Shown here: piece after piece, positions 3,152-23,470 of the stretch | How the letters are laid out: every line of letters starts with the position of its first letter | How positions within the stretch are numbered: position 1 is the first letter of the stretch | From: Clavelina lepadiformis | Taxonomy: Eukaryota; Chordata; Ascidiacea; Aplousobranchia; Clavelinidae | Direction: 5' to 3' | Length of the DNA stretch: 64,000 nucleotides | Assembly (NCBI RefSeq): GCF_947623445.1 | Contig: NC_135246.1 | Location: forward strand, 1,118,501 to 1,182,500 | Made by a program: the position numbers and the translations under genes | The notes under the pieces: generated by a model | The model's input: the letters and a program-made list of their open reading frames with translations, nothing else | The model's database searches: none | What the model was told of the DNA's origin: nothing

Positions 3152-5294
3152 TATTTATTTGATTGATTTATTTGATTTTTATTTGATTGCTTTCACAAAC
3201 TATGGCTGCATGTTTTTATTCTTCTTATTCTCTCTACAGAATCTTGATACGCACGTTTTTAAAACGCAGAAAGTGAACTATAAAAGGATGCATTAAATAA
3301 GCGTTAATTAATGAAAGCACGAGGAGTAGCGTCATCAAAAATGCGTAATTTAACGCATCATGAACGCAAAATGCAAAAGAACGGAACGAAGACGTTATAG
3401 ATCCTTCAAAAATATAGTTACTCGTTTGGAATAGGAATTGATGTACGAGGAAATTCAATTACTTTGTTCCCTTTTTAAGCTAACAGACTCTTACCTTGAT
3501 GAAAATGGCAATGCAACAAGTCCTACGGCGAGGATAAGTGCGCCTACAACTGCGACAGCTACCGGCCAGCGTTTCAATGGAGTAAAATTGGTCAAATTTG
3601 GTGTCAGGCCAAAAACCACATACATTGGCAAGAAAGTCAAACCTAAGAACAGGTTAATTATAAAACACTCAAATAGAGGTAAGGCTAAAGACAGGTAAGG
3701 AATTGCAGCGCATAAAAACATACCTATTTCCCAATTGGGGGGATGAAAGCGCCCAATTAACCAGGCTGGCATCGTACTGTTAATCGCTGCCAAAACGATA
3801 CCTCCCAGTAGAAGCGTAGCAAGGTCAATGAGAATGTCGATGTTCTTGATCATTTTCCACATGTTCGTTGGCTTTCTTTCCTATTACAGTTTGTTTCATG
3901 ACTCCATAGATATCAAAAGGTAAAGTAATTGCATAGAAATTAAAAATTCTTCTTAAAATCTTTCAAACTTACTTGTTCAATTCGTTCGATCTTTAGACAA
4001 CTGTAAAATATTTGCAAGATTCCAAACAAAGCTATCAACCCGGCAAGAAGAAAAAAAGTGGCTTCTTTACCAGTAAAAGCGGTCATTACGCTCCCGTAAG
4101 GTGGTCCAACTTTGTTAGAACATTGAAATTTACTTTATTTAGAGTTGGTGGCTAAGATACCAAGCATATTGAACAAAGCACTTACTTGCCGTGCCAACAC
4201 CTATCATGCCATAAGAAAGACCGATCATTTCTCCTCTTCGATCCGGGTCAGGAAACGTCCTAGCCAACAGGGTCATCCCTCCCGCCGCGTTACATGCAGA
4301 ACCTATGCCTTGTACCGCTGCCGATGCCAGTAGAACTGGATAAGACTGCCCCAATGCATACCCTGTTCGTACATTTAACACAGTAATTGCAAAGTTAAAG
4401 ACATATCCAGAAACAAAGCAAAGAATGATTAAATTTATAAGAAGGACTTATCTGAAACGATAAGGTTTATGCTAAGAAAATCAAGGGAAAGATATTGAAC
4501 TAAACATTGCTGTTGGTACTGATAAAACTTAAGTGAATGTTTTGCTGGGCCCACCCGTTTTAAAAAGTTGAATCGAAATACCAGCCGTTGTCAGTTCAAT
4601 ATAATGACGTCATCACGTCAGTAAATTGTGACACAACAAAACAAACCTATTGCAGTTAGGCAGAGGATTACTGCCCCAGCAAACATGGGAATGCTGTATC
4701 CAATCCTGTCAATCAACGGTCCTACCAGCAAGTCGGTAACAACTTGTACGGCAGGTTTGACGGCAAATATTAAGGCGATTTTTACAGCTTGCGTTGCAAG
4801 ATAAGCTTTTTCTGCTTCTTGGAGATTTTGTGCCGCGGCTGTTGGTGAAATTAGAATCATATTTACAGTCGTTGCTTCCGAAGTGGCGTTTGTTGATGTA
4901 TCTAAATGTCCGCTTTCCTTCAACTCTGATTGAGATCTTAAATGTATTTTCCATAGCACTACTGGAGCGATTGGAACTGCAAAAAGGAAATTAAATTAAA
5001 TCGGCCAACGTAAAGGCTACGTCGTAAACTGGATTTTTCCCAAAACAACTCATATCTGTTTATCTCAATTTGAGCTTCAATATCCACTGGTGCTGAAAAA
5101 ATGCCTTTTGTCAAATAGTAATCAAAGTAGATTGTAGGGTTAACCTGAGTAGAATTAAGGGTTTGGAAGTAATAAGATTCTGAAAACTTAAACTCACTCA
5201 TAGCTGTTTGAAGTGTGTAATCGAGGAATACCATTGAAGCTACGATAACCACAGCAAATATGCTGGAGCTTTGCATTTGTTGTAAAAGATTCAT
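1817..5294 (-). CDS. Vesicular amine transporter-like protein, copy 1 (SLC18A family)
   Basis: Predicted 467-residue, 12-TM major-facilitator transporter of the SLC18 (VMAT/VAChT) family, which exchanges vesicular protons for cytosolic amines. Exons on the minus strand: 5294-5198, 4976-4647, 4362-4186, 4109-3973, 3880-3724, 3642-3495, 2693-2527, 2457-2309, 1858-1817. All junctions are GT-AG and the phases close to a stop. Family marks are the TM1 motif FLDY (Asp25), a glycosylatable lumenal loop after TM1, GPLIDRIG followed by PMFAG, RTFPDPDRRGEMIG, and YALADIA in TM10 (Asp395). VMATs have a further Asp in TM11; here I see Ser or Phe there, aligned by eye, so substrate is uncertain. The last exon encodes a short acidic tail. 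A splice acceptor lies just upstream of the ATG (after 5309), so the 5' UTR is cis- or trans-spliced. Confidence 0.9.
2085..2223. repeat. Nested fold-back sequence in SLC18 copy 1 intron 8
   Basis: Outer arms ATGCCCGC...ACTTG (2085-2097) and CAAGTGC...GCGGGCAT (2203-2223) and inner arms GGTACCCG (2117-2124) and CGGGTACC (2168-2175) are inverted repeats, giving a nested hairpin that is GC-rich against its surroundings. It may be a small fold-back element. Confidence 0.55.
3118..3180. repeat. TGAT-type microsatellite
   Basis: About eight TGAT units followed by imperfect TTTAT/TTGAT units in intron 6 of SLC18 copy 1. The corresponding site in copy 2 (about 8950-8975) has only a single short remnant. 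Confidence 0.9.
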
Positions 5295-5584
5295 TCTATT
5301 TTTTCCAGCTGAAAACAACGTTAGTTTTAGCGTTTAAATATTTTTTGATTGGCATTACTCATATACTGTAGTTATGACTTGTTGTATGGCGCACTATAAT
5401 CATTCATATACAACGATTGATGTTTTTTTTTTCACAACAATTTTTATTATATGACTAACTTTAGTCTGCTAATTCCATGTTCTTTTTTCATTTTACCTTT
5501 GACGAATTGAAACTTCTTTCAAATTGTTTTCACCTTATTGAAGGAAACCTCAGCCGGTTCTTTTCTTCTTTTAGCGGCGAAAAT

Positions 5585-5620
5585 TTAACGAAGCTCACAA
5601 AAGGTGAGCTTTTCAATCAA
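5585..5620 (-). promoter_or_regulatory. Conserved upstream element, SLC18 copy 1
   Basis: On the minus strand, TTGATTGAAAAGCTC, a short spacer, then TGTGAGCTTCGTTAA, about 290-330 bp upstream of the ATG. The same two blocks at the same distance occur upstream of the diverged third gene. A TATA-like TATATAAC lies about 50 bp further upstream (5672-5679), so the element may be in the 5' leader or outron. The function is inferred from conservation only. Confidence 0.5.
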
Positions 5621-7663
5621 GATCGTTCCAAGACTGGCATATCGACAAACTCACGTTGTGAGTAAATTGCGTTATATACCAGCCGTAACCTCCTCCTCGA
5701 CGTAATAATACGCAGATGTTAACTTCGGGTCCCTTCCTGTCACTTCGAGTGCTTCCTTACTGCGCATCGCGCTGCTAATACCAACAGTTTGCATTTTGCT
5801 TGTTTTTAATTTTTTTCATTTTGCTTGTTTGCTTGTTTTGCTTGTTTTCTAAAAGTAAGGCCTTAGTTGCTGAAGGAAAAGTGGCGTTGGGTATCGTTTG
5901 ACGGCTGAGTTGAATGGCATAATTCAGATTTACAAGCATTCCTGTGCTCGTTAACCATTAGGCCAACACTAGTTGGCGTACCCATGTGGTGTTCATTGCA
6001 ATCCCTAAATAGTCGCACCTTAAGTGAATGTCCAAATATTGACAAGCGAAATTATTACATTTTGTCAAAAATGCTCTTCACTGCGTCGATGATTCCTTTA
6101 GCTGTGCGGCGTTCCCAGCACCTACTCGGAGGACAAGCAAACGCACAACAAAGTTTCCCAGCTGCTTAGTGTATTCCGTGATGCAAAATTCCGTTTATTC
6201 GGTTTTTGAAAGGGATCTTTGTGAAAATATCTCTTAAATTTATGCTGTATTTTGCATTACAATTCAAATTTTATGTGATTTTGACAATCCCTGCTTCCAT
6301 TAAACCATTCTTACTTCTTCCTATTCTATTCTATAGCTCTTTTGTCATTCAACACATTTTGGTTGTTGGGTTACTCGCAAGAAATATTGACTATTAATCG
6401 CGCAAACAAAATATTGCAAGTAACTTTGCCGTTAGCTGGCTAACTGTACACGGAGCAACGTTAAACATGTAGTTCAAAGTAGAGGGTAGCCTGGAACAGG
6501 TTTTATTTATTGTTTCTATGGCTGTGAAAATAAGTGGCTTCGTTGGAGATGCATCAGGCAAATTTTAGCATTGTGTTTTTAATCCCAAGATCAACTAGCT
6601 AAATTACCCAAACCCACAGAATAATCAAGGCATTGTGGATATAATCTTGCCAGGTCCTTCGAGGCAACTTTTGCGCAGATCAAAACAAAAGAGAAAAATC
6701 AAAAAACTCTTTCACACACTACAAAGGAAAGCATGAGACAGTTAAAGGTTGAATTATTGTCGAATTATTGAATTCAAAATCGTCCATGATTTTTTGTTAA
6801 GTATGATGCATGCTGGACTTTTACATGTAATATCGTTGATACAAAATAAACTTTTAGCGACAATTTTTGTTTTTACTCTAACTCATAACAAGTAATCAAA
6901 GAATTTAAAGTGTAGTGCGGGCTGCCACGACATATTTGGCGTTTTTTGCATATTATGCTGCGCACATACGTCAAAGAAACGATTACAAGTACGTGAGTAC
7001 ATGCCAAGGATGACGTTAGGTATTTGTGGCATACGCCACCTGTAAAGCTAGCAACGTGGTACGAGACAGGTGGTCGGTTACGACTGTTGTTGTAATTGCT
7101 GGTTCACAAAAAAGAAAAATTTCATAACGGACTTGTACGGATTGCCTGAAATGAATATAAGACGTAATTATTATTTTGTATTATAGACGCATTTATATTA
7201 TATCAATGGTGAAAGATGGACAAATAAGAAACGGACTTACAAATTCTAAAGATTGTTGTAAGGCAAGATTTTCTGGCAGAAAGTTATCAGAGTTATTTCA
7301 CATTTGTAAATAACGTTTTCATTGATATCAATTTAATCCAACTGCACGAGGACATATTTTGCGATAACAAACAAACACGATTATGTTCAATGGTAGAGTT
7401 CGTCATGTGCAATATAAACGGGTTTAAACAAAAATGGGTTTAAAAAATAACTTTGTGGTGGAAATGTTTTGGAAATTCCTGAAAAATTACTTTTGTCTTC
7501 TCATTCCACTAAGCTTTTTTTGCTGTCATTATGTCGTTTTGTCGCTTACAAAACCTACGAAAATCCTTGGGATGAAGATGTCTTAAAAAGGATAAAATGG
7601 AAACCAGTTATTACAGTGCGGTGATTTGTATTGAAAATAAGATTCCTCTCATAGGAAAAACAT

Positions 7664-10600
7664 TTAATCGTTTTTCTCGTCATTGGTCGAGTCTTCGAGC
7701 AGCTGCTAAAATACAAATAAAAAAATATCAATAAATGAGAGCTAATTACCTGCTGCAACATTATAATCTGTAATTGCGTATCCTTACTTTAGTAAATCAC
7801 CAGTCTAATTTTTCACTTGAACATTACATGCTACTAGTCTCGGTTTAAAGCATTTTTCAAATCACTGAGCATCTCTTCTACATGCACCTACAAATCTAGG
7901 CTTGTCATCCGCGACCGCAGTCATTCATGCCCGCACTTGCATGCCCACATTTTTTACAGGTACCCGCCACTTATTTTTACCTATTCGCACGACCGCAGTA
8001 AAGCTACAACGGGTACCAGCAACCATCTCACGGGATCGGAACTGCAAGTGCATTGGCGCGGGCATACCTGCGCGCCCACAGTAGCTAACATACTATTACA
8101 GTTATACCGTGCCTTACAGTGTATAGGTATTCACGCGTAATTTTCCTCACCTGTGTTTCTTCAACTTGTGTTAATTTTTTCTTCGTCACGTACCACCGCA
8201 CAGTTACAGCAAAAGCATAGACAAAACTAGCAATCGTAAAAATCCACATCATCCAAGAAAAACTTATACCCTGGACAATTCCCGCGCCAATTAGCGGCCC
8301 TGTAAGCAGCGGTCGCTTTTATGCTTTTCCTCGGCGGGACAATCACATGAGGTCAGTGTAATATTTACCAGCACAATTCCCAGTATTCATTGCAATGTCG
8401 GCCAACGCGTAGATACTTCCATAATCAGAGTCGAAGAGGGCCTCACACAATACAGCCATATGAGGATAAATGCTTCCAGATATCACACCGATTCCGAAAC
8501 CTGTCACCACGTTTGGACCAATCGTGGAGATAAAGCTGCAAGATAGAGATATGTTTCAGCATGTGGTTTAAGTCATTTAGCTGCGCTAATGGTAAGTTAC
8601 TTGTTGTGGAAACACATAAAAGTATCGCTGTTTGCATTAGTAGAAAAATTCCATCAAAGGAAAGACTTGAATTGGAGCAAAAAAATTGTTTTAACAAAAT
8701 GGATTATAAAATGGCAAGAAAATAAAAAATGTGGAAAGGAATTAGGTTCATTAGCCAAATAAAGTCAAGTTTTGGACTGCAGCGAGTGAAATATGGAAGA
8801 AAGGTAAAAGATTTAACGTCGGTACGTCATAGTTATATTGGGATATGTGAGAGATGAACCGACCGGAAAATTTGTAGAAATTGATGAAGACAAAGAAGAA
8901 CTCAGATAATATTAAAATTGACAAGGCAATGCAATGATATTAAACATGTAGTCATGCGTGGCTGTTTATTTGATTGCTTTCACAAACTATGGCTGCATAT
9001 TTTTATTCTTCTTATTTTCTCTACAGAATCTTGATACACACGTTTTTAAAACGCAGAAAGTGAACTATAAAAGGATGCACTAAGTAAGCGTTAATTAATG
9101 AAAGCACGAGGAGTAGCGTCAGCAACAATGCGTAATTTAACGCATCATGAACGTAAAACGCAAAAGAACGGAACGATGACGTCATAGATCCTTCAAAAAT
9201 ATAGTTACTCGTTTGGAATAGGAATTGATGTAGGAAATTCAATTATTATGTTGCCTTTTTTTAAGCTAACGGACTCTTACCTTGATGAAAATGGCAATGC
9301 AATAAGTCCTACGGCGAGGATAAGTGCTCCCACAACTGCGACAGCTACCGGCCAGCGTTTCAATGGAGTAAAATTGGTCAAATTTGGTGTCAGGCCAAAA
9401 ACCACATACATTGGCAAGAAAGTCAAACCTAAGAACAGGTTAATTATAAAACACTCAAATACAGGTAAGGCTAAAGACAGGTAAGGAATTGCAGCGCATA
9501 AAAACCTACCTATTTCCCAATTGGGGGGGTGAAAGCGCCCAATTAACCAGGCTGGCATTGTACTGTTAATCGCTGCCAAAACGATACCTCCCAGTAAAAG
9601 CGTGGCAAGGTCAATGAGAATGTCGATATTCTTTATCATTTTCCACATGTTCGTTGGCTTCCTTTCCTGTTATAGATTGTTTAATGACTCGCAATTCAAT
9701 TCGCGATTCAACGCACCCAAAATGACAGACCCCATGAAAATGACCCCCAAATAAATCAGAATGTCGAAGTCTTTTAATAATATCCACATGTTTTTTGGCT
9801 TCTCATCCTGTCATCGTTTAATTCATGATACCATAGATATCAAAAAGTAAAGTAATCGCAGAAATAATCATCTTTCAAACTTACTTGTTCAATTCGTTCG
9901 ATCTTTAGACAACCGTAAAATAACTGCAAGATTCCAAACAAAGCTATCAACCCGGCAAGAAGAAAAAAAGTGGCTTCTTTACCAGTAAAAGCGGTCATTA
10001 CGCTCCCGTAAGGTGGTCCAACTTTGTTAGAATAAGTTATTGAAATTTACTTTATCTAGAGGTGTAGGCTAAGACACCAAGCGTATTTAACATAGCACTT
10101 ACTTGCCGTGCCAACACCTATCATACCATAAGAAAGACCGATCATTTCTCCTCTTCGGTCTGGGTCAGGAAAGGTCCTAGCCAATAGGGTCATCCCACCC
10201 GCCGCGTTACATGCAGAACCTATGCCTTGTACCGCTGCCGATGCCAGTAGAACTGGATAAGACTGCCCCAATGCATACCCTGTTCGTACATTTAACACAA
10301 TAATTGCAAAAATAACGACATATCCAGAAACAAAGCAAAGAATGATTAAATTTATAAGAAGGACTTACCTGAAACGATAAGGTTTATGTTAAGAAAATCA
10401 AGGGAAAGATATTGAACTAAACATTGCTGTTGGTACTGATAAAACTTAAGTGAATGTTTTGCTGGGCCCACCCGTTTTAAAAAGTTGAATCGAAATAACA
10501 GCTGTTGTTAGTTCAAAATAATGACGTCATAACGTCAGTAAAATGTGACACAACAAAACAAACCTATTGCAGTTACGCAGAGGACTACTGCCCCAGCAAA

Positions 10601-11211
10601 CATGGGAATGCTGTATCCAATCCTGTCAATCAACGGTCCTACCAGCAAGTCGGTGACAACTTGTACGGCAGGTTTGACGGCAAATATTAAGGCGATTTTT
10701 ACACCTTGCGTTGCAAGATAAGCTTTTTCTGCATCTTGGAGATTTTGTGCCGTGGCTGTTGGTGAAGTTAGCGTCATATTTACAGTCGTTGCTTCCGAAG
10801 TGGCGTTTGTTGACGTATCTAAATGTCCGCTTTCCTTCAACTCTGATTGAGATCTTAAATGTATTTTCCATAGCACTACTGGAGCGATTGGAACTGCAGA
10901 AAGGAAATTAAATTAAATCAGCCAACGTAACGGCTACGTCGTAAACTGGATTTTTCCCAAAACAACTCATATCTGTTTATCTCAATTTGAGCTTCAATAT
11001 CCACTGGTGCTGAAAAAATGCCTTTTGTCAAATAGTAATCAAAGTACATTGTAGGGTTAACCTGGGTAGAATTAAGGGTTTGGAAGTAATAAGATTCTGA
11101 AAACTTAAACTCACTCATAGCTGTTTGAAGTGTGTAATCGAGGAATACCATTGAAGCTACGATAACCACAGCAAATATGCTGGAACTTTGCATTTGTTGT
11201 AAAAGATTCAT
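7664..11211 (-). CDS. Vesicular amine transporter-like protein, copy 2 (SLC18A family)
   Basis: Tandem paralogue of copy 1 with the same nine-exon plan and a predicted 467 residues: 11211-11115, 10893-10564, 10279-10103, 10021-9885, 9666-9510, 9428-9281, 8535-8369, 8299-8151, 7705-7664. The protein differs from copy 1 by scattered substitutions. TM1 Asp25, the GPLIDRIG/PMFAG signature, the RRGEMIG loop and TM10 Asp395 are all kept. Unlike copy 1, the intron between exons 4 and 5 carries a truncated extra exon 5 (9807-9706) of the type seen in the inverted third gene. Splicing into it would lead to an in-frame stop, so a full-length product requires skipping it. Intron 3 also matches the third gene better than copy 1 does, which suggests gene conversion. 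Confidence 0.88.
7927..8065. repeat. Nested fold-back sequence in SLC18 copy 2 intron 8
   Basis: Paralogous copy of the fold-back in copy 1, with the same nested inverted arms. It therefore predates the segmental duplication. Confidence 0.55.
9706..9807 (-). pseudogene. Truncated extra exon 5 inside SLC18 copy 2
   Basis: On the minus strand, after an acceptor ending GACAG at 9808, 34 codons reproduce the start of exon 5 of the inverted third gene (DEKPKNMWILLKDFDIL...) rather than the copy 2 exon 5 (ERKPTNMWKMIKNIDIL...). The match stops after GALN and is followed by a short AT-rich near-palindrome, then by copy-1-type intron and the true exon 5. There is no usable donor, and reading on meets TAA within about 12 codons. 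It is a conversion or insertion scar, possibly acting as a decoy or poison exon. Confidence 0.85.
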
Positions 11212-11499
11212 TCTATTTTTTCCAGCTGAAAACAACGTTAGTTTTAGCGTTTAAATATTTTTTGATTGGCATTACTCATATACTGTAGTTATGACTTGTT
11301 GTATAGCGCACTATAATCATTCATATACAACGATGGATGTTTTTGTTTTCACAACCAGTTTTATTATGACTAACTTTAGTCTGCTAATTCCATGTTCTTT
11401 TTTCATTTTACCTTTGACGAATTGAAACTTCTTTCAAATTGTTTTCACCTTATTGAAGGAAACCTCAGCCGGTTCTTTTCTTCTTGTAGCGGCGAAAAT

Positions 11500-11535
11500 T
11501 TAACGAAGCTCACAAAAGGTGAGCTTTTCAATCAA
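11500..11535 (-). promoter_or_regulatory. Conserved upstream element, SLC18 copy 2
   Basis: Same element as upstream of copy 1, about 290-325 bp upstream of the ATG, with the same TATATAAC further upstream (near 11588). Identity here may simply reflect the recent duplication. Confidence 0.45.
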
Positions 11536-12344
11536 GATCGTTCCAAGACTGGCATATCGACAAACTCACGTTGTGAGTAAATTGCGTTATATACCAGCCG
11601 TAACCTCCTCCTCGACGTAATAATACGCAGATGTTAACTTCGGGTCCCTTCCTGTCACTTCGAGTGCTTCCTTACTGCGCATCGCGCTGCTAATACCAAC
11701 AGTTTGCATTTTGCTTGTTTTTAACCTAAAAGTAAGGCCTTAGTTGCTGAAGGAAAAGTGGCCTTGGGTATCGTTTGACGGCTTAGTTGAATGGCATAAT
11801 TCAGATTTACAAGCATTCCTGTGCTCGTTAACCATTAGGCCAACACTAGTCGGCGTACTCATGTGGTGTTCATTGCAATCCCTAAATAGTCGCATCTTAA
11901 GTGAATGTCCAAATATTGACAAGCGAAATTATTACATTTTGTCAAAAATGCTCTTCACTGCGTCGATGATTCCTTTAGCTGTGCGGCGTTCCCAGCACCT
12001 ACTCGGAGGACAAGCAAACGCACAACAAAGTTTCCCAGCTGCTTAGTGTATTCCGTGATGCAAAATTCCGTTTATTCGGTTTTTGAAATGGAATTTTGTG
12101 AAAATATCTCTTCCATTTACGCTGTATTTTGCATTAAAATTCAAATTTTATGTGAATTTGACAATCCCTGCTCCCATTAAACCATTCTTACTTCTTCCTA
12201 TTCTATTCTATGGCTGTGTTGTCATTCAACACATTTTGGTTGTCGGTTTACTCGCAAGAAATATTGACTATTAATCGCGCAAACAAAATATTGCAAGTTA
12301 TTTTGCCGTTAGCTGGCTAACTGTTCACGTAGCAACGTTGAAAA

Positions 12345-12690
12345 TAGATGTTATTGCAGTTATGCTTTGTGCACAAAAATTTAAAGTATTTGAAGCATTC
12401 ACTGAATAGATAATTCTGTTTGTCCAGTTCAGATGGCGGGAAACATTTCTTCCGAACAAAGTTTCAAAGTTTTTTTCAATTTACCAAAAAAATTATCATC
12501 TATGTACAGACAAAAAAAAATTAACCGCTGAATTAGGAAAACAATCTTGTGATATTTGTCTATTTAAATCAATACAAAATGAAGGCGTTTATCGTTTAAG
12601 ACGTTTCTTTTTGTATGAAGCCTGATTCTCAATTTGGTTGAATAGACTTGAATAAGATAATGCCTGACGGCGGGAAGGGAAACATTAGTT
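12345..12690. other. Segment present only in duplication unit 2
   Basis: Unit 1 runs directly from the ACGTT at about 6460 to TAGTTCAAAG at about 6471, whereas unit 2 has about 345 bp between the matching points. The segment is AT-rich with no open frame and no clear terminal repeats. It could be an insertion in unit 2 or a deletion in unit 1. Confidence 0.6.
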
Positions 12691-12975
12691 CAAAGCGGAG
12701 GGAAGCCCGGACCAGGTTTTATTTCTTGTTTCTATGGCTGTGAAAATAAGTGGCTTCGTTGGAGATGCATCAGGCAAATTTTAGCTTTGTTTTTTTAATC
12801 CCAAGATCAACTAGCTAAATTACCCAAACCCACAGAATAATCAAGGCATAGTGCATATATACTTGCCAAATCCTTCGAGGCAACTTTTGCGCAGAGCAAA
12901 AAAAGGGAAAAAATCAAAAAACTCTTTCACACACTACGAAGGAAAGCATGAGACAGTTAAAGGTTGAATTATTGA

Positions 12976-13568
12976 CATAATTGATTTTAAGACACAGTAA
13001 TAACGGCCACATTTTCATAAACAATGAAAAGATATGTAAAATGATGCGATTGCATTGGGACAACGATAAATATTGCATTAGGTACTGGGTAGATTGCATG
13101 ATGGTTGGCCTGATACTAAGCACCCAACAAACAGTCTTATTAGGCTTGAGCAGCAGTCTAGGTTATGCACCTGTTTTCCCGTTCGTTCTTTGTGAGCTTT
13201 GTTCTTTTTGCACTTTGTTATAACAAGATGAGCGTCAAATGTTTCACTCCCAGCAGTCAATTGTGGCAAAAAAACGAATGGAGCCGATGCATAGAATCAA
13301 CAAATCTGATAAATCTGGCCACACAAACAAGTAGTCACAAGATGCTGATTAGGTTGCTTTCACGTCTATCTGAGAAGCCATTTTTCCCGTTCAAAACGAA
13401 CACATCCTGGGCAGACTGTTTGCACATAGTGTCGAGTGCGCAGCTTGGAAGCAACGGGAAGGAAACTGGAGTCGAGTGCTGCAACGTAGAAGGAAGGGGT
13501 TTAAACTGGTGTAAGGAGGAATTTTCTCATAAGGTTATTTTGTCCATGAGTCAGTCCTAGAGCGACTT
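12976..13568. other. Intergenic, upstream of SLC18 copy 3
   Basis: A 131-codon open frame (13165-13560) with a hydrophobic start crosses this region. Its 3' part shows weak nucleotide similarity to the non-coding upstream flanks of copies 1 and 2 (for example GTCGAGTGCGCAG...GGAAGC), so I read it as promoter-region sequence, not a gene. Confidence 0.4.
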
Positions 13569-13605
13569 TTGATTGAAAAGCTCGTTTTATTGTGAGCTTC
13601 GTTAA
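13569..13605 (+). promoter_or_regulatory. Conserved upstream element, SLC18 copy 3
   Basis: TTGATTGAAAAGCTC, spacer, TGTGAGCTTCGTTAA, 287-323 bp upstream of the ATG. The surrounding sequence is much more diverged from copies 1 and 2, so this block stands out as constrained. Confidence 0.5.
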
Positions 13606-13864
13606 CTCTACTTTGCAATAAGAAGGACGAGGTGAGCTAACTTCGAATAATCTAAAAACAATTGTAAAGAGATGTTTTGTTTGCGCATTTATTTGAGATC
13701 CAACGTCAAAGCCTAAAAACAGCATAAAACTAGCAAACAAATATGATCCGTAATTTCTTTGCTTTGGAGGTACAGTTGAATTTATCGTTTATTTTATCAA
13801 TGGTTATCCTACGGTAAGTCCCGTACGCGTGAAACGCAGTGTTGAGTAACTACAACTACACATT

Positions 13865-13891
13865 AACGTTGTTTTCAGCTGGAAAAGGAAA
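13865..13891 (+). promoter_or_regulatory. 5' UTR splice acceptor (cis or spliced-leader)
   Basis: The string GTTGTTTTCAG followed by CTGGAAAA sits just before the start codon and is conserved at the same place in copies 1 (around 5309-5320) and 2 (around 11226-11237), although the sequence between acceptor and ATG has changed length and frame. That pattern fits a 5' UTR acceptor, not coding sequence. In tunicates such sites often receive a trans-spliced leader; which applies cannot be told from DNA. Confidence 0.5.
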
Positions 13892-16451
13892 ATGAATCTT
13901 TTACAACAAATGCAAAGTTCGAAAATATTAGCTGTGGTTATCGTGGCTTCCATTGTCTTCCTCGACTACACACTCACAGGAGCGATAGGTGAGAGCTAGT
14001 TTTGAGAGCCCTGGTCAATTCAATCCTGATTGAATCTAAAATTGACCCAGTGGCCTATTTGTCTAAGTACTTTGAACCCGGTCAGATATATTGGGACTGA
14101 ATTGGGTTAAATTGTGATAAATGGAGTTGAATTGAGTAGAAAAGAATTAAGTTCACGACCGGTTTTACGTTGGCCGCTTTAAAGCTTAATTTTCTCTCTG
14201 CAGTTCCAATCGTTCCAACCTTGTTATGGAAAATACATTTAAGGTCCCAATTAGACCTGAAGGAAAGCAGCCATTTAGATACGTCGACAAACGCCACTTC
14301 CGAAGCAACGACTGTAAATATGACTCTAATTTCACCAACAGCCGCGGCACAAAATCTCCAAGATGCAGAAAAAGTTTATCTTGCAACGCAAGGTGTAAAA
14401 ATCGCAGCAATATTTGCCGCCAAAACTGTAACGGAAATGATCACCGATCTGTTCGTCGGTCCATTGATTGACAGGATCGGACACAGCGTTCCTATGTTTG
14501 CTGGGGCAGTGTTTCTCTGTACAGCTGCAATAGGTTTGTTTTGTTGCGTTGCATTTTACTGACGTCGTGATTTTCTTGTCTGTGCTTACAGGTTTTGCAT
14601 TGGGGCAGTCTTACGCTGTTCTATTGGTATCCCCCGCGGTACAAGGCATAGGCTCTGCTTGTAATACGGCGGCCGGGATGACAATGCTGGCTAGGACCTT
14701 TCCTGAGGAGGAGCAGAGGGGGAAAATCATTGGAATAACCTTCGGCATGTTAGGTGTCGGCTCAGCATGTAAGTGCTGTGTTAAATATGTTTGTTATCAT
14801 AGCCTACAACTCTAGATAAAGTAAATTTCAATAACTTATTCTAACAAAGTTGGACCACCTTACGGGAGCGTAATGACCGCTTTTACTGGTAAAGAAGCCA
14901 CTTTTTTTCTTCTTGCCGGGTTGATAGCTTTGTTTGGAATCTTGCAGTTATTTTACAATTGTCTAAAGATCGAACGAATTGAACAAGTAAGTTTGAAAGA
15001 TGATCATTTCTACGCAATTACTTTACACTTTGATTTCTATGGTGTCATGAATTAAACTACGACAGGATGAGAAGCCAAAAAACATGTGGATATTATTAAA
15101 AGACATCGACATTCTGATTTATCTGGGAGTTATTTTCATGGGGTCTGTCATTTTGGGTGCGTTGAATGGCACATTTACAACCTGGTTAATCGAGCGTTTT
15201 CATCCTCACAACTGGGAACTAGGTAAGTCTACGAACATGATTAAGTGTGCCCGTCATATCATGTATTTCATTATGAACTTGTTTTTAGGCTTGGCTTTCT
15301 TGCCATTGTTTGGTCTTTTTGGTCTGGCGTCAAACATGATTAATTTTACCCCATTAAAACGCTGGCCGATAGCTGTCGCGGTTTTGGGCTCAGTTATATT
15401 TTGCATTGGGCTTGTTGCGCTTCCATTTACACCAAGGTAAGGCAAAAGTACACGTAATCTTAATGATAATAGATTTGTTAACAGCACTGTTAACAGTTCT
15501 GTCACGTTAGTCACTTATTAAATTTCCCTGTGGGTTAAACTGCTTGTTTAGCTGCTGAGAAAAAAATTTGACTTTATTCGCTTTTTTTTAATCGTTTTCA
15601 TCTCGTAGCAAAACGCAATGAATGTTTTTTAAACATTAAAAAAAAAAAAACTTAAATCAACTTCACTTATGCGAGTTGTGCGTAGGTTAATAGCGTCTTA
15701 AGCGTCTTTACCACCAGCATATCATACGTCAAGTAAACCACGTGCGGAAACATATTTCCATCTTGCAGCTTTGTTTCCACAATTGGTCCAACCTTGGTGA
15801 TAGGTTTGGGAATCGGTCTGGTTACCGGAAGCATTTACCCAGACTTGGCTGTGTTGAGTGAGACCAGACACGACTCTGATTACGGAAATGTTTACGCCTT
15901 GGCCGACATTGCCATTATGGTTGGCTTTTTTGTTGGTAAGTACAGTTACGTTGTGTGACTGAGACGCCGGGCAAACATGTATAAGCGACCATTTTTCACA
16001 GGGCCGCTAATTGGCGCGGGAATTGTTCATGCTTTAAATTTTTCTTGGATGATGTGGATTTTAGCGATTGTTAGTATTGTTTACGCTTTGGCGTTAGCTG
16101 TTCGCTTTTACGTGACGAAGAAAAAAACAACACAAGTTGAGGAAACTCAAGTGAGTCATTTTATCAGCTTTCGTGGAGATGTGTGACTCGCGTTGAAAAC
16201 TTTGCATGAGCTTAAAACACTAATATAATGTTTATGTAAAAAAGAAACTGGTGTGACTTGTAATTTTATGAAGTAAGGTTACATAAACGCAATAATGACG
16301 TAACTATGCTAGAAACCTAACTATATCCTTAATATTTCCGAGACAAGGAATCACCTTAATTCCGTTACTTAACCATTTTTCACATATTTTTTAGCAATTG
16401 CTCGACGACCCGATCAATAATGAAAACAACGACGAAAAAGAAGTTTCCTGA
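13892..16451 (+). CDS. Vesicular amine transporter-like protein, copy 3 (SLC18A family)
   Basis: Third SLC18-type gene, inverted relative to the tandem pair; predicted 472 residues. Exons: 13892-13988, 14204-14533, 14592-14768, 14850-14986, 15066-15222, 15289-15436, 15769-15935, 16002-16150, 16395-16451. Exons 1-8 have exactly the same lengths and phases as in copies 1 and 2; only the last exon is longer. Features seen are FLDY in TM1 (Asp25), lumenal NAT and NMT sites, GPLIDRIGHS/PMFAG, EEQRGKIIG after TM4, SIYPDLAVLSE and YALADIA in TM10 (Asp395), and an acidic Asn-rich tail. Exon 4 is almost identical to the other copies while exons 2, 3 and 6 are clearly diverged. The gene is convergent with SELENOF. 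An acceptor after 13878 lies 13 bases before the ATG. Confidence 0.9.
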
Positions 16452-16805
16452 AGGAAGAAATTTTGTTTGCAACTTCCAAACCACCTCGCTTCAGCTTTGC
16501 CTGTTATTTCGACTGCATCCGACGTTTTTTGCAATTTCCTTGATTTTTGATAAAATAATACAGGCATAACAAATAAGCATTGTGGACTTAAGATGACCAA
16601 AATGTAATGTACTGCATAACTGTTTATTTAGGTTCCACAGTGATTGCACCCACAGAATTGCACTCACACAGAATTGCATACGTTCGGAGTTTCGAACTGC
16701 AAGAAACAAATACTGTAATATATAAGGAAACACGTTACGTACGTGCGATAGATAACAGTTAAATGAATTAGGAAAACGTGGCTAGCCTAACAGGTAAGTT
16801 ACACG

Positions 16806-16862
16806 CATAGATATAGTATAAACACTGTATCGTTTATAAATCGTGTTTATGCTATATCTATG
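16806..16862. mobile_element. Short fold-back element flanked by GTTACAC
   Basis: Two 20-base arms (CATAGATATAG...ATAAACAC and its complement) with one mismatch enclose a 17-base loop. GTTACAC lies within a base of each end, like a target-site duplication. It sits between the convergent SLC18 copy 3 and SELENOF genes. A MITE-like foldback or an RNA hairpin are both possible. The rest of 16452-17418 shows no gene. Confidence 0.5.
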
Positions 16863-17418
16863 GTTACACAGCAACAGAATCGTTCCATCACCTACTATTG
16901 TTCGAATAAATGTTAGAATTCATAACTTGCCCTTGGCACTTCTCGGTGGGGAGACAGGATGGACATTAAACAAATTCCATTATAGTTTTCTGCTTCGGTG
17001 TTAATATTTCTTTTTTATTTCGAAAACTTGGAGGAGCAAATGCTGCCTCTGTATTCAGGCACTAAAACCCTAGGTACACCCCTGATTACGTGTGGATGTA
17101 ATTTCGTATTGGTTTAATCCCTTGTGCGAGCAATTACGTTGCATGCAATGCCGTGGCCGACGTTTAAAACCAGTTTCAGTGTCCAGCAATAGGTTTAACT
17201 GACCAGCGACAGACTTATGGCCAAGATACCGAGCCCCAGAAAGACTTGAGTTATACCATTGGCTTTCAGCTATCTCCAAAGAATTTAAGCCGTTTCAGAG
17301 CAAACACATTGACTGAAACCGAATTAAAATATTGATACAATTTTATTCACATACTGAAATCTTTCCACCATTGACGCTTATTTTCACGTACAATGCGTTC
17401 TTGGTAGTTTCCGGGTCG

Positions 17419-17486
17419 ACCGCCAACAAACATCAGAAACTTCACACCGAGACGGTTTCCAGAAATTTCTTCATTGAGCTGGCAGC
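17419..17486 (-). promoter_or_regulatory. SECIS element of SELENOF (3' UTR)
   Basis: Read on the minus strand: helix I arms GCTGCCAGC and GTTGGCGGT pair over 9 positions with wobbles; the quartet has ATGA on the 5' side (17474-17471) and TGAT on the 3' side (17435-17432); helix II arms GAAATTTC and GAAGTTTC pair over 8 positions; then an unpaired AAA (17458-17456) and a small hairpin CCG-TCT-CGG, giving a type II-like apex. It lies about 190 bp downstream of the SELENOF stop codon. SECIS elements direct Sec insertion at UGA through SECISBP2 and EEFSEC. I folded this by eye. Confidence 0.88.
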
Positions 17487-17679: not shown

Positions 17680-19562
17680 TTATCGGACCAGTTTCTCATT
17701 GAGGAACTCCTCGACGCTGTCGGTGTTCCACTTGCTGATGCTCAGAGTCTCTTGGACATCTTTATTCTCATCCAGGAGTTTGATTACCGGCTCCGCTCCA
17801 CGGATATACTGAATATTGAGACAAGTTGAAATCATAACCTGCGGCGGAATTAACTTTACATGATTTTAAAACAACCGACCTTAACATGTAGGTTTGAAAA
17901 AGTTCTGGATTTATCTCCTTTCACGAACGCTGTAACCGACATAAAAAAAACAGCTTAATGGGATAAAAGTAAAACACATCCACATTTAACCCAACTTGCT
18001 TGCAAACCATTTACACTTTTATCCAATCGATCTTGACAGCTTGATGGTTAGCGATAGATAGATAGCCTATTATTACTCAGTGATGGGATTTTATCAGTAT
18101 GTGTGATGAATCCAACAGTAACTTTGTTCCCAATTTCAATTGAGTTGTTCACAATATGTCATGGCAAACTGGAAGTCTGCAACGCTTATTTTGTCAATTA
18201 TGTTAGCCTGCTATATGTAGAACTACCGGCTGCAAGACATTGATGAAGGAAAGAGCCGAATTCAAACTGAAGTGAAAACGCATTGCTAAATGTTCACAGT
18301 TATTTGTGGGAGTTTTCTAAATATGTTGTAACTATGCGACATAAATTCTTTAATCTTGAACAATGCTGTTTGCAATAAATTTAAATTTCTTCTGTTTCAG
18401 GTAGATATTTTAATTTACAAAATATGTTAAGTTAAACGAATAATAATGCATGACCGATGATGTACAAAAAATATGCACTGTAGCGGTAGCTGTTGCCTTA
18501 TCATGCATGTGAATATCAAGATTTACGGTGGTTTGCTGTGAGGTCACCACACAATTTGTCAATTGCTGATGTCAAAGCCAATTATAAATCTAATTTCTAA
18601 GTGACAATTCCGACATCATAAATTGTTCAATCCCATCACCGTTGTAGCTTCTAAGTGGTTATTTTCATCCTACCTTGGACTTGGGGGTAGCGTCCAATTT
18701 TTCATCCGCAAACTTCTAATCGAGCAAAAGGAAATTTCTAAACACCAGAAAAAAGATGAGCCCACAACCAGTAGTGACTTGTTATGATATAACAGTGGAA
18801 GACAGAATGACATTGTGTCAATAAATGTACACTACAGAGATAACATAAAACTGGTCTAACACACCAACTCTACATGCCCTTTATTACGTGTTTAAGGCCC
18901 TAAAAGGTTGTGAAAGGAAAGTTAAATCATCATTTTGCAGTTTACATACATTCTGGGACAACGTAGAAACTTCCACCAATCTAATGCAAACACAAGCTAA
19001 CTCACACCGTGACTATTGGATGCCGCCATGACAATATACCTTTGATTTGAGGGTATCTTGGTAGCACTCATACACAAACTTCCAATATAGCATAATGCCA
19101 CTGTCAAGTAAACCGACAATCAGACTTGCATTGAAAATGTTTTGCTTAAATTTTAATTTCTCACACAATTAACGTGCGATAGAATCCTAGTACATTGGTA
19201 ATATAATTTAAGTTGTTTTAAATTGGAAAAAGAGATTTTACTATTTTAGTCCAGACATCAGTTATGCTGCTATAAGTTTCATTGTATTCCTGATATTTAA
19301 AACGCTCCGCCAAAGTGAGCTAATGAGGGCTTTATTGTATATTACATACATATCAATATAGAATTAATCTGTTAATTAATCTGCCACATACTTTGGTGCC
19401 GTCTTCTTCAGCTTCTGTCTGACAACATTGCAGACAATCACCCTGCAAAGACGTCAGATTGAACTGTGGCAAGAGATCACATGATCCACACATCAACTGC
19501 GACCCAAAGCCAAGTTCGGAACATTCCTGTGTGCTCAATTGTCCTCTGACATCAGAATGAAC
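17680..19562 (-). CDS. SELENOF: Selenoprotein F (15 kDa selenoprotein), 5' end missing
   Basis: ER-lumenal thioredoxin-like selenoprotein that in vertebrates binds UGGT and acts in glycoprotein folding quality control. Exons, minus strand: 19562-19392 (Cys-rich UGGT-binding region, STQECSELGFGSQLMCGSCD...), 18737-18674 (redox exon ending LEVCGUKIGRYPQVQ, Sec encoded by TGA at 18704-18702), 17929-17880 (AFVKGDKSRTFSNLHVK), 17808-17680 (YIRGAEPVIKLLDE... KWNTDSVEEFLNEKL, stop TAA). Phases 0-0-1-0 match the family. The CGU motif of vertebrate SELENOF is kept, and a SECIS follows in the 3' UTR. The exon with the start codon and signal peptide should lie above 19580 on this strand and was not recognised. 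A second UGA-bearing exon (19100-19040) lies between the first two listed exons. Confidence 0.93.
18078..18641. mobile_element. Possible hAT-type MITE in SELENOF intron
   Basis: The ends CAGTGATGGGATT and CAATCCCATCACCG form an imperfect terminal inverted repeat around 564 bp. The flanking octamers TTATTACT and TTGTAGCT agree at five of eight positions. No coding capacity. Tentative. Confidence 0.35.
19040..19100 (-). other. Duplicated selenocysteine exon of SELENOF (exon 3b)
   Basis: A 61-nt block preceded by TTGACAG and followed by GTATAT reads WHYAILEVCVUVLPRYPQIK in phase 0 with exit phase 1, exactly the phases of the main Sec exon (18737-18674, 64 nt). The TGA (19070-19068) aligns with the Sec codon; the redox motif is CVU instead of CGU. 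Nucleotide similarity to the main exon is plain across both UGA codons and donors. Because both exons enter in phase 0 and leave in phase 1, including both would break the frame, so they could only be used alternatively. It could be a mutually exclusive exon or a decaying duplicate; the changed KIG to VLP after Sec leans slightly toward decay. Confidence 0.75.
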
Positions 19563-20189
19563 CTGAATTAATGTAATCACTAATCAGGCATAATTATTAC
19601 GGCAAAATACAGTAACACAAACCAAATGCTTTGAACGAATTACAGAGATGTGACAAGGTTTAACCTAAGGGTAGTTCAATAACAAATGTAAAATCATGAA
19701 ACAATAAATGCATATATTCAATATATAACTAGGCCTTTAAGCTAAACATTAACAAATAAAACACATTAGATAAAAAACCTCTAATCAAGAAACACCTTAA
19801 ACAGAAACCATAAGCGAGGAGCAGAAAAAAAACATCTATATGACATATATTGCTCAATGTCCAAACCTGGAATGACCAAACAATAACATACAAACATCAC
19901 AAAAGAGTATTAAAAGTGTGACAAGTGTGTATAAAAGTGTGACAAGTGTGTATAACACTCGACATAGTAAAGGCATAACCTTTGTATTAATTAAGAAAGG
20001 CTGATTATCAAAGACGGAAGTTCAACAATGAATTTGGTGCATAAATTACTTTGTTATTCAACATAATCAAGATGTAGTATGCCTGATTTGTCAAAGTACT
20101 ATAGCAGTAATGAAAGATATGAAAGACAATGTTAAGCGCCACTAACATTTCAAACCATTCTGCTAAGTATGATTGAGGGTCAATTCCGA
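19563..20189. other. Upstream SELENOF intron or flank, no exon recognised
   Basis: AT-rich. It contains a short two-unit repeat of GTGTGACAAGTGTGTATAAAA around 19913-19955. I could not find the SELENOF signal-peptide exon here. Confidence 0.4.
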
Positions 20190-21290
20190 ATTGATATAAT
20201 ACAGAAGTTGAAAAAGTCTTTGAGAAAACAGCAAGAGTTATAACAGAAACGGAGCTTTAAGATATCTGAAGCAATTGCAGAAGAAAGAAAGCCTTACAGT
20301 GATGGTGACTTCATAAGAATTGTTTAGAGATGTTTGCCGAAAATACGAGTCTGGAGAAGAAATATCTAGCAGAGCAACCAAGTCTTTCTTGTTTTACAGT
20401 AGCTCGCTGAATAGATGACCTTTAGGAAAATATTGAAGTTTCTCTGAAGGAGAGAAAAAGCAAATGATAATGATAATGCTCCGCTTATAGTATCGCTTTA
20501 GACGAACTTGAGCGAACTTCAGCGATACTGCTCAGCTGGTTGTTTTCATTAGAGGAGTAACAGATAATTTTGACATAATTGAAGAATTTTTGGATATGGC
20601 AAGTATGAAATCAACAACTTGTCGAGATATTTGCGAGGAGCTCATAAAATTGATGAAAAAGTATGAAATAGATCCTTCGAAGTTAGTTGGTAGTTAGTTA
20701 GCCACCGACGGAGCGCCATCAATGATAGGGAAAAATAATGGATTTGTTAAAAGATTCTTGGATGTTATTCAAACTCAAGATGTTTTAGTGAGGCATCCAG
20801 CCATTGCATGAACCATCAAGAAAACTTGTGTTCAAAAGTACTGGACTTTGGTGAAGTCATGAAAAATGTTGTAACGTGTGTAAATTACATTCGAGCGCTG
20901 GGATTGAATCATCGGCAGTTTAGTCGTTTCTGGAAGCGCTTGACTCTTATCTTGACTCTTTACTCCTGGATGTAAATTATTTTTGTGCAGTTAGATGCAC
21001 TTTAAAGAGATTCTGGAATCTCATGGAGGATATTCAGACTTTTATGGAAAATAAAGATCAAGATGTTTCCTTTCTCAAAAATTGTCAATGGTTGAACAAT
21101 TTTGCTTTTTTAACTGACATCACTCAGCATCCGATCTGAATGTGGAGTCACCAAGTAAGAAATCAAGGAAGTCATACGATCAAGCTAAACCCAGCTCTTT
21201 CAGCTATTAAAGACGGCGAAATGTCCATTCAAAGGGCCTCAGTGGCTTTCAATACGCAAAGCATAATGACTCACTTTTTATTTTGCATCA
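20190..21290 (+). mobile_element. Dead hAT-superfamily transposase
   Basis: Fragments in several frames resemble the hAT transposases related to ZBED5, SCAND3 and GTF2IRD2: EAIAEERKPYSDGDFI (20270-20318), AQLVVFIRGVTDNFDIIEEF (from about 20532), LSKLVG-like followed by ATDGAPSMIGKNNGFVKRF (about 20704-20760), then HQENLC and NFAFLTDIT (about 21098-21122). The frame is interrupted by many stops (for example TAG between the GS and LATDGAP blocks) and shifts, so no functional transposase is made. Terminal repeats were not identified. It lies upstream of the recognised SELENOF exons, possibly inside its first intron. Confidence 0.75.
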
Positions 21291-23470
21291 CATCGTAAGA
21301 ATACGATAATCGTTACGGTTAAGTTACGCCTATAGGATATGCGAGGTATACTAAAAACGTTTTAAAACTTGGCCCGTCCATTGTATAAATGCCAAAGTAA
21401 AAACGTAATTATTCGCAAATCAATGAATAAACACAGTTTACTATGCATTGCTCATAACTCCAGTGTTCTTCTTTAGTCTTGTACAGAACAAACTGCAGTA
21501 CGGTTAAAGGCTAAATTCTTCATAAAAATACGTCCGCAAAAGCAGGGACAAGCGGACGCATTTATGGGGATGTCTGGCCGCATTTCAAAGGAGTGTCCAG
21601 AGTAACCCGGAAAAAGTAGTCTTGGAAGAAATAGTTTTGCTCCGTTTTCGCGTCAGTTGAAATTAATATAAAATTATAGTAAAAAAGTAAATTAAATTCT
21701 GCACAATATGGTGAAAACATTTTTTCTCTAGCCCTAGGCAAATGCATTTAATATGAGCTTTAAATCGCAAAGAAAAAATGTGGCCGCAATACCGCCATTA
21801 GACCCTAGAACAGGCCTGGCCAACCCGCGGCTCTTTGCCCGGTATTATGCGGCTCTTTCGTTCATATTCTATTTGTTTTTTAGCTTGTACAGTATAAATG
21901 ACTTGTAAATTTCTGTCATTTTCATGTTGGTGTGTAACATTTACAAAAAACGTAGTTGAACAAAGGTGTGTATGTGAGTGAGGAAGAGACGGGGTGATAT
22001 TCATGTGTGTCAAATCCTTGACATGTATTTTCCCTATTTTCCACAATGGTTTACATTATTACAAGCTAGCAATATAATCCACAAATTAACGTCCTACCAG
22101 GCCAAAGAGCATCAGCTGAAGTAACCTTCCAATGACATTTGACCCCACTTTGGAAGGCATTTTAACCTCAGGCCCCATTGCCCGATGAAGATATGTTCAA
22201 CAGTTCGGCAACTTATTATTACTTATCACTGAAATTTGATTATACGTTAAATTATATGTTAAAGCACCAAGTAAACATGATAAAAAGGATTTTGTGGCCT
22301 AATGTGAAGAATAAGAAATAATCAGTACCCGATAGACTCCATTTCGCAAGTTTTTCCGAAGGGTACAAAAAATTCTTGTTAAAAGCAATTTAATAAAGTG
22401 TATCTGATGATTCTTACTCATACGACAGTTCACTAACGTACCACCGTCCTTTTACAGAAGAAAAATTGATTTTCCCTTTCCAGCCCCAGCTGCATTAGCA
22501 CATGGGGTGGGAAACAACAAACAGTATTTAACCTATATACCAGCAGACTACCAGTAAGTTCGACTACCTTCAACTACCAGTAAGTTGTAAAGGCAAAGCT
22601 ATAGGTACCGGCAGGCATTAGCCTATGAAGAAGTAGGTCTACCAGTAGGCTATTATTCCAGAATTCAAGATGCTCACAGCCCCGACTGGCGTTAGCGCAC
22701 CTGTCGATTGCAAAGTAGGCTAATGCCGAATGCCGATTGCAAGTAAGCTACTACAATCTTAAAACCAGTAGGCTATACTTTGGTACCAGCAGAGCAAGGC
22801 TTAGGGCTTAAGGCAAAAATGTCTTTGCTAACGTGTCCCGTTGATAGACATCTTATATAAAATATCATTACCATGGGGAAACTTCCCTAACTCGAATTTA
22901 GTATACCTGAAAAGCAGCTGAACTGGTTCTGAAAGCGCATTAATAATTAATAAAAATACACGGAAAACAATATTTCTAACTCGATGCTCACTCTCCCCTA
23001 AACATTTCATCTAATTTTATTATGTGGCCAACTCTAAAGATGTTTGTTGCACCATTTTCCGTGAAGATAAAAACATATCTAAATGATTAATAAACAAGCA
23101 ATATCGGGTATAAACAATATCGTATAATATACAATATAACAATATACAATAACATAATAATATACATACATACATAACATACATAACATACATAACATAC
23201 ATAACAATATAATATACATATCAATATCGACGATAACAACCCAAATCAAATCACGGTCAATTCAGTTCATCAAGTTCAAGTTCATCAAGTCAAGCACAAG
23301 TTTGAATTGTAATGTCAATGTAAGTTCACCAACGCGATATCCCTTTGTGGTGGTAGTCGTAATAAGCTATACTATATGAGCAAAGTGATTCTGCACTTTA
23401 CACGTTAAACCCTTCGCAAAGAACATTGTAAGAAGAGATCAACCCGTAAACATGTCGCGTTAGCTTCTTG
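21291..23470. other. Repeat-rich gene desert
   Basis: No gene recognised. Near 21811 the string CAGGCCTGGCCAACCCGCGG with CTCTTTGCC resembles the end of a hAT non-autonomous element, but no matching right end was found. At 22540-22800 the words ACCAGTAAGTT and ACCAGTAGGCTA recur irregularly. Confidence 0.4.
23172..23206. repeat. 9-bp minisatellite (ATAACATAC)
   Basis: About four units of ATAACATAC within a longer ACATACAT/ATAT-rich tract (about 23100-23225). Confidence 0.8.

Follow-up and report, generated by a model that had tools for sequence, protein, structure and literature searches.

Mutually exclusive tandem exons, as found in Dscam and similar genes, are adjacent homologous copies of equal phase and near-equal length, and the use of both at once breaks the reading frame. 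The exact role of SELENOF (Sep15) in the control of folding in the endoplasmic reticulum is still debated. Among selenoprotein genes, ascidian SPS-ae uses alternative exons of one gene to set the active-site residue, giving Sec and Gly forms with an alternative 5′-end exon structure, as described in the available part of PMC4561486. Human Sep15 is itself alternatively spliced, but by a frame-shifting skip of exon 4 that involves no duplicate exon, according to the accessible sections of PMC3316567. Alternative Sec codons within one gene have been proposed before, since PMC2874816, in the portion at hand, assigns two human DI2 forms different TGA codons through splicing; they are not described in that portion as homologous duplicate exons, and the second DI2 UGA is mainly a stop according to the accessible sections of PMC3316567. 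Table 1 of PMC2874816, within the same portion, holds one Sel 15 entry for Ciona, and of the six invertebrates in the available part of PMC3473315, five have a single Sel15 each, whereas “Bf”, taken here as amphioxus, has two. Among the matches listed in a survey of titles and abstract openings, with subscription journals mostly outside its coverage, no description of a duplicated Sec exon in Sep15/SELENOF was found, in line with the first-pass annotation of this DNA, which knew of none.

The window analysed here is a stretch of 64,000 nucleotides from the ascidian Clavelina lepadiformis, and its minus strand carries a SELENOF gene with two homologous selenocysteine exons that we call A and B. 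Like animal SELENOF/Sep15 (PF08806, fly 2A4H), the gene combines a Sep15/SelM redox domain with a C-x-U/C motif and a SECIS in the 3′ UTR, and its Cys-rich N-terminal stretch is a candidate further common feature; unlike them, it has two candidate alternative Sec exons, and CVU besides CGU, where the fly protein has CTC. As in mutually exclusive tandem exons, A and B are adjacent and homologous, both run from phase 0 to phase 1, and the frame is lost when they are used together or skipped together. Unlike in Dscam-type pairs, what is exchanged is an active site with a Sec codon, for which a common SECIS is required, and unlike in SPS-ae, the UGA is kept in both forms and the two exons are homologous to each other and arranged in tandem. 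This anatomy, the homology of the exons, their phases, the frame logic and the one common SECIS are read directly from the DNA. As judged from these features, we consider it likely that A and B constitute a functional, mutually exclusive Sec-exon pair that arose by an old tandem duplication and swaps the redox motif.

Exon 1 (22098-22178, minus strand, 81 nt) is putative. It holds a start codon and a hydrophobic, signal-like stretch followed by GT, and was picked by eye for its hydrophobicity and phase fit, a phase-0 join to exon 2 giving MGPEVKMPSKVGSNVIGRLLQLMLFGL followed by VHSDV. Just upstream of its start codon lies a 3′ splice-site-like TTTCAG (22229-22234, minus). The presumed Ciona spliced-leader 16-mer, which we take to mark the genome as that of an ascidian, occurs 836 + 647 times in it, against 0 for the backward control pattern, and among the matches listed a long tandem array of it, mostly in 745-bp steps, occupies at least 12.14-12.21 Mb of contig 6; given this genome-wide occurrence, the TTTCAG could be a spliced-leader acceptor. 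Intron 1 seems, by eye, to contain the decayed coding sequence of a DNA-transposon-like element in plus orientation (20100-21300).

Exon 2 (19392-19562, minus, ECSELGFGSQLMCGSCDLLPQFN...), with AG upstream and GTATGT downstream, encodes a predicted Cys-rich N-terminal domain, which we take to be the UGGT-binding domain and which presumably resembles its human counterpart; the Cys-rich stretch of the spliced protein is matched by no Pfam domain model. The two Sec exons follow on the same strand, exon A (19040-19100, 61 nt, TGA at 19070-19068) first in transcript order and exon B (18674-18737, 64 nt, TGA at 18704-18702) second. Exon 4 (17880-17929, minus, 50 nt, phase 1 to 0, AG/GT borders, AFVKGDKSRTFSNLHVK) is common to the A and B forms, and the coding part of exon 5, up to the stop codon TAA (17680-17808, minus), encodes the remainder of the Sep15/SelM domain (PF08806, 54.9 bits). 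The SECIS is located at 17422-17483 on the minus strand (Rfam RF00031 SECIS_1, E = 0.0017); the match spans model positions 1-64 of 64 with 32.4 bits, below the gathering score of 35. Genome searches returned SELENOF matches at this locus only, among the matches listed, and such searches miss short exons: the form B query gave no match to exon A, and the exon A query none to exon B.

Exon A translates as WHYAILEVCVUVLPRYPQIK and exon B as KFPFARLEVCGUKIGRYPQVQ. Each is preceded by AG, followed by GT and contains one in-frame TGA and no other in-frame stop; this TGA codes for the last residue of the C-x-U motif, CVU in A and CGU in B, with Sec predicted from the sequence. The exons lie 302 nt apart, and the one-codon difference between 61 and 64 nt keeps the frame. 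Spliced E1+E2+A+E4+E5 measures 492 nt and the same assembly with B 495 nt; both are open when TGA is read as Sec and end at the same TAA. A transcript with both exons (556 nt) or with neither (431 nt) is frame-shifted. The first-pass annotation had described two minus-strand blocks entering in phase 0 and leaving in phase 1, each with AG, GT, an in-frame TGA, LEVC-x-U and RYPQ, had joined them to a donor at 19392 and an acceptor at 17929, and had held that using both would break the frame; all of this is borne out, and skipping both exons breaks the frame as well. Because the both-exon and neither-exon mRNAs are frame-shifted, exclusion would require no special device beyond the choice of splice sites, and frame loss would eliminate double or null products at the protein level.

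The same frame shift can be read differently, with exon A acting mainly as a regulatory switch: mRNAs containing A and B, or those in which the UGA of A is read as a stop, would be unproductive and would tune the level of SELENOF, for example with selenium supply. Inclusion of both exons indeed shifts the frame into a stop in exon 4, and the exon-4-skipping, frame-shifting form of human Sep15 was found in 41 of 99 ESTs for the region (PMC3316567, accessible sections). A pure poison exon, however, need not retain LEVC-x-U, RYPQ and a phase fit to exon 4, and we regard the switch as improbable. The stop of the A+B transcript, counted on the spliced sequence, also ends 31 nt upstream of the last junction, under the 50 nt of the usual rule for nonsense-mediated decay.

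When Sec was replaced by Cys, the Sep15 profile PF08806 scored 106.3 bits for form B, 102.8 bits for form A and 73.6 bits for a protein with neither exon (cut-off 26), corresponding to gains of 32.7 bits for exon B and 29.2 bits for exon A. Both forms matched fly Sep15 (2A4H; E = 5.2e-25 for form B, 1.6e-24 for form A) ahead of SelM (2A2P). The stretch 19391-18738 contains A; its highest-scoring 20-codon match to exon B, at 57, was reached by none of 1000 dinucleotide shuffles of this stretch (mean 5.6, s.d. 5.0, maximum 27), and the best 20-codon match to fly Sep15 scored 56, again reached by 0 of 1000 (mean 8.8, s.d. 4.6, maximum 32). With AG and GT required in the right phase, 935 of the 1000 shuffles had any candidate at all, and the maxima fell to 4 for exon B and 13 for the fly protein. 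A resemblance by chance is very unlikely, because no shuffle reached the match of A and the exon adds 29.2 bits to the profile score. The exon is short, and a scan of every position on both strands of the window gave best scores besides A and B of 40 (minus) and 30 (plus); with 40 as the next best score, the window showed no third copy of the Sec exon. The stretch that scores 40, at 30269 (minus, YSNCTIGLCTUKYQKYICVI), looks unrelated and is probably a chance match. An identity of 39/60 nt between A and B appears too low for a duplicated-assembly error, and we therefore hold chance resemblance or an assembly artefact to be exceedingly improbable as an explanation of exon A.

Compared with the corresponding stretch of fly Sep15, the two exons score almost alike (56 for A and 57 for B as 20-codon matches; 56 and 58 over 20 residues). 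At the 13 residues identical between fly Sep15 and a provisional human Sep15 sequence, A keeps 9 and B 10, and against that human sequence A is farther, with a score of 57 against 79 for B. The redox motif of fly 2A4H is CTC, and the middle residue of CxU is thus not fixed in the family, so that a CVU motif does not by itself point to decay. This corrects the emphasis of the first-pass annotation, which had set CVU beside the CGU of other animals. The two copies seem to have kept different sets of old residues: A has Ala-Ile before LEVC as in fly Sep15, where B has Ala-Arg, and B has Lys after the redox residue as in the fly protein, where A has Val.

The copies agree at 39 of 60 nucleotides and 10 of 20 residues, and four of the ten identical residues are written with different codons. 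Their differences are spread evenly over codon positions 1, 2 and 3 (7/7/7). The NG86 dN/dS is ~0.5 (0.40/0.80) over 20 codons and ~0.26 over 15 core codons, numbers too small to serve as a main argument, and a value of ~0.5 could also be attained with one constrained and one free copy. Local alignment supports a likeness confined to the exons: none of 500 letter shuffles reached the score of the exons themselves, as against 477 of 500 for the 150 nt upstream and 111 of 500 for those downstream. The ungapped agreement of the flanks, for which no control was run, is 38/100 upstream and 28/100 downstream. The duplication of the Sec exon is real and old, and both copies are intact.

These figures bear on a rival account, in which exon A was functional for part of its history, recently fell out of use and is now fading. 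The 7/7/7 spread and the modest dN/dS agree with such a course, as does the greater distance of A from the provisional human Sep15 sequence. On the other hand, the frame, the single TGA in its place, and the AG and GT are all intact, and the profile and fly scores of A are nearly those of B. We simulated neutral evolution from B or from a composite, with 20,000 runs per setting, success being defined as the score of A together with an intact frame, TGA and AG/GT. An A-like copy was retained in 0.0001-0.0018 of the runs at 0.4 substitutions per site, in 0.0005-0.011 at 0.3, in 0.006-0.066 at 0.2 and in 0.056-0.29 at 0.1. The dS between the copies is ~0.8, and the branch length is only loosely known because this value rests on 12.8 silent sites. 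Neutral retention is thus not rare on a short free branch, in keeping with recent fading, and neutral decay ever since the duplication is unlikely save on such a branch. The simulations support constraint on exon A over part of its history, and in the single genome examined its sequence has probably been under selection for part of that time.

Splice-site strength was evaluated with an approximate metazoan donor matrix and by counting pyrimidines in the 17-nt acceptor tract. Donor scores are 7.37 for E1, 5.37 for E2, 5.41 for A, 8.65 for B and 6.48 for E4, and the acceptor tracts contain 9 (E2), 10 (A), 13 (B), 12 (E4) and 11 (E5) pyrimidines out of 17. The sites of A are weaker than those of B, as recent fading would have it, but they are on a par with those of exon 2, which stands against it. 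Among the 93 GTs scored in 19391-17930, the donor of A ranks sixth, behind the donor of B and four GTs not known to be donors (6.23, 6.08, 5.86 and 5.6). Taken together, the evidence makes recent fading unlikely, though it is the leading competitor. The first-pass annotation had offered mutually exclusive variants and a fading duplicate side by side. The sequence leans towards the variants, because the exons are alike where their flanks are not, A matches the fly protein as well as B does, the splice sites of A are not below those of exon 2 and double use breaks the frame; a recently fading duplicate is the less likely reading.

Two inner GTs of exon A, at 19073 and 19079, raise the further question of whether only its first part is used, adding a few residues before B. 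The 27-nt piece ending at GT 19073 would indeed join B in frame, but these inner sites reach donor scores of just 0.71 and 0.94, the outer one having 5.41, and such use would leave the retention of U and RYPQ in A unexplained; we think it very improbable. As for the mutually exclusive use of whole exons, the 302 nt between A and B are too long for steric exclusion, and an exclusion device such as competing RNA pairing or a very short intron is absent from some mutually exclusive pairs. At this locus, in this single genome, neither strong pairing elements nor a very short intron that could enforce exclusion were found; the search for pairing yielded only three inverted repeats, all weak and 14-15 nt long. 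A scan for splice-regulator motifs, run with no control, returned one TGCATG at 18507 and is uninformative.

In the spliced forms the UGA lies 403 nt from the SECIS for both A and B, a distance that exceeds the minimum of 51-111 bases given in the accessible sections of PMC3316567. For tRNA-Sec, the genome yielded 38 matches, one of them above the Rfam cut-off (75.3 bits); in a control, the same search gave matches in 14 of 14 genomes, above the cut-off in five. COX1 gave no match in the assembly, and a GH6 marker for tunicates matched neither this genome nor any control genome.

The mechanism that we propose starts from an old tandem duplication of the SELENOF Sec exon in an ascidian, which would have provided two alternative active-site exons. 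Exon 2 would be spliced either to A, which supplies CVU, or to B, which supplies CGU, and then to exon 4, and the single SECIS would be used by both forms, so that both proteins would contain Sec. The isoforms would differ only across a segment of 20-21 residues that surrounds the redox motif; the remaining redox domain, the Cys-rich domain and the putative signal peptide would be the same in both. On balance, we favour the view that one gene, with a single SECIS and a mutually exclusive pair of UGA exons, supplies CGU and CVU Sec centres on the scaffold of a UGGT partner, and that this arrangement has been selected in ascidians. We infer that exon A is currently included in mRNA and translated, and that the CGU and CVU centres are chemically distinct. 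If this is correct, isoforms differing only around the redox motif would amount to a natural swap experiment on the role of the Sec centre, and exon duplication would be able to multiply and diversify a Sec codon under one SECIS. Such pairs would escape gene finders that assume a single Sec codon in each gene, a limitation of earlier methods that is raised in the portion of PMC2874816 at hand. A pattern search for relatives, made with a single-protein query able to detect close relatives only, gave 5 matches in viral contigs and 33 in genome contigs, of which 0 were confirmed.

The remainder of the window holds several other features. An array of similar transporter-like reading frames extends over 3491-15440; its block at 3491-5333 is almost identical to that at 9277-11250 (minus), and the plus strand has related frames at 14140-15440. 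Two such frames were compared with Pfam: one gave weak matches to Sugar_tr and MFS_1, below their cut-offs, and the other had no match. A hairpin at 16796-16871 (minus) is weakly mir-142-like (27.8 bits, cut-off 57) and may be a small inverted-repeat element and not a microRNA. Two ordinary neighbouring genes were recognized by Pfam, one with a match to galactose-3-O-sulfotransferase at 38412-38846 on the minus strand (38.8 bits, cut-off 27) and the other with a match to the Mlh1 C-terminus at 48888-49238 on the plus strand (33.5 bits, cut-off 25).
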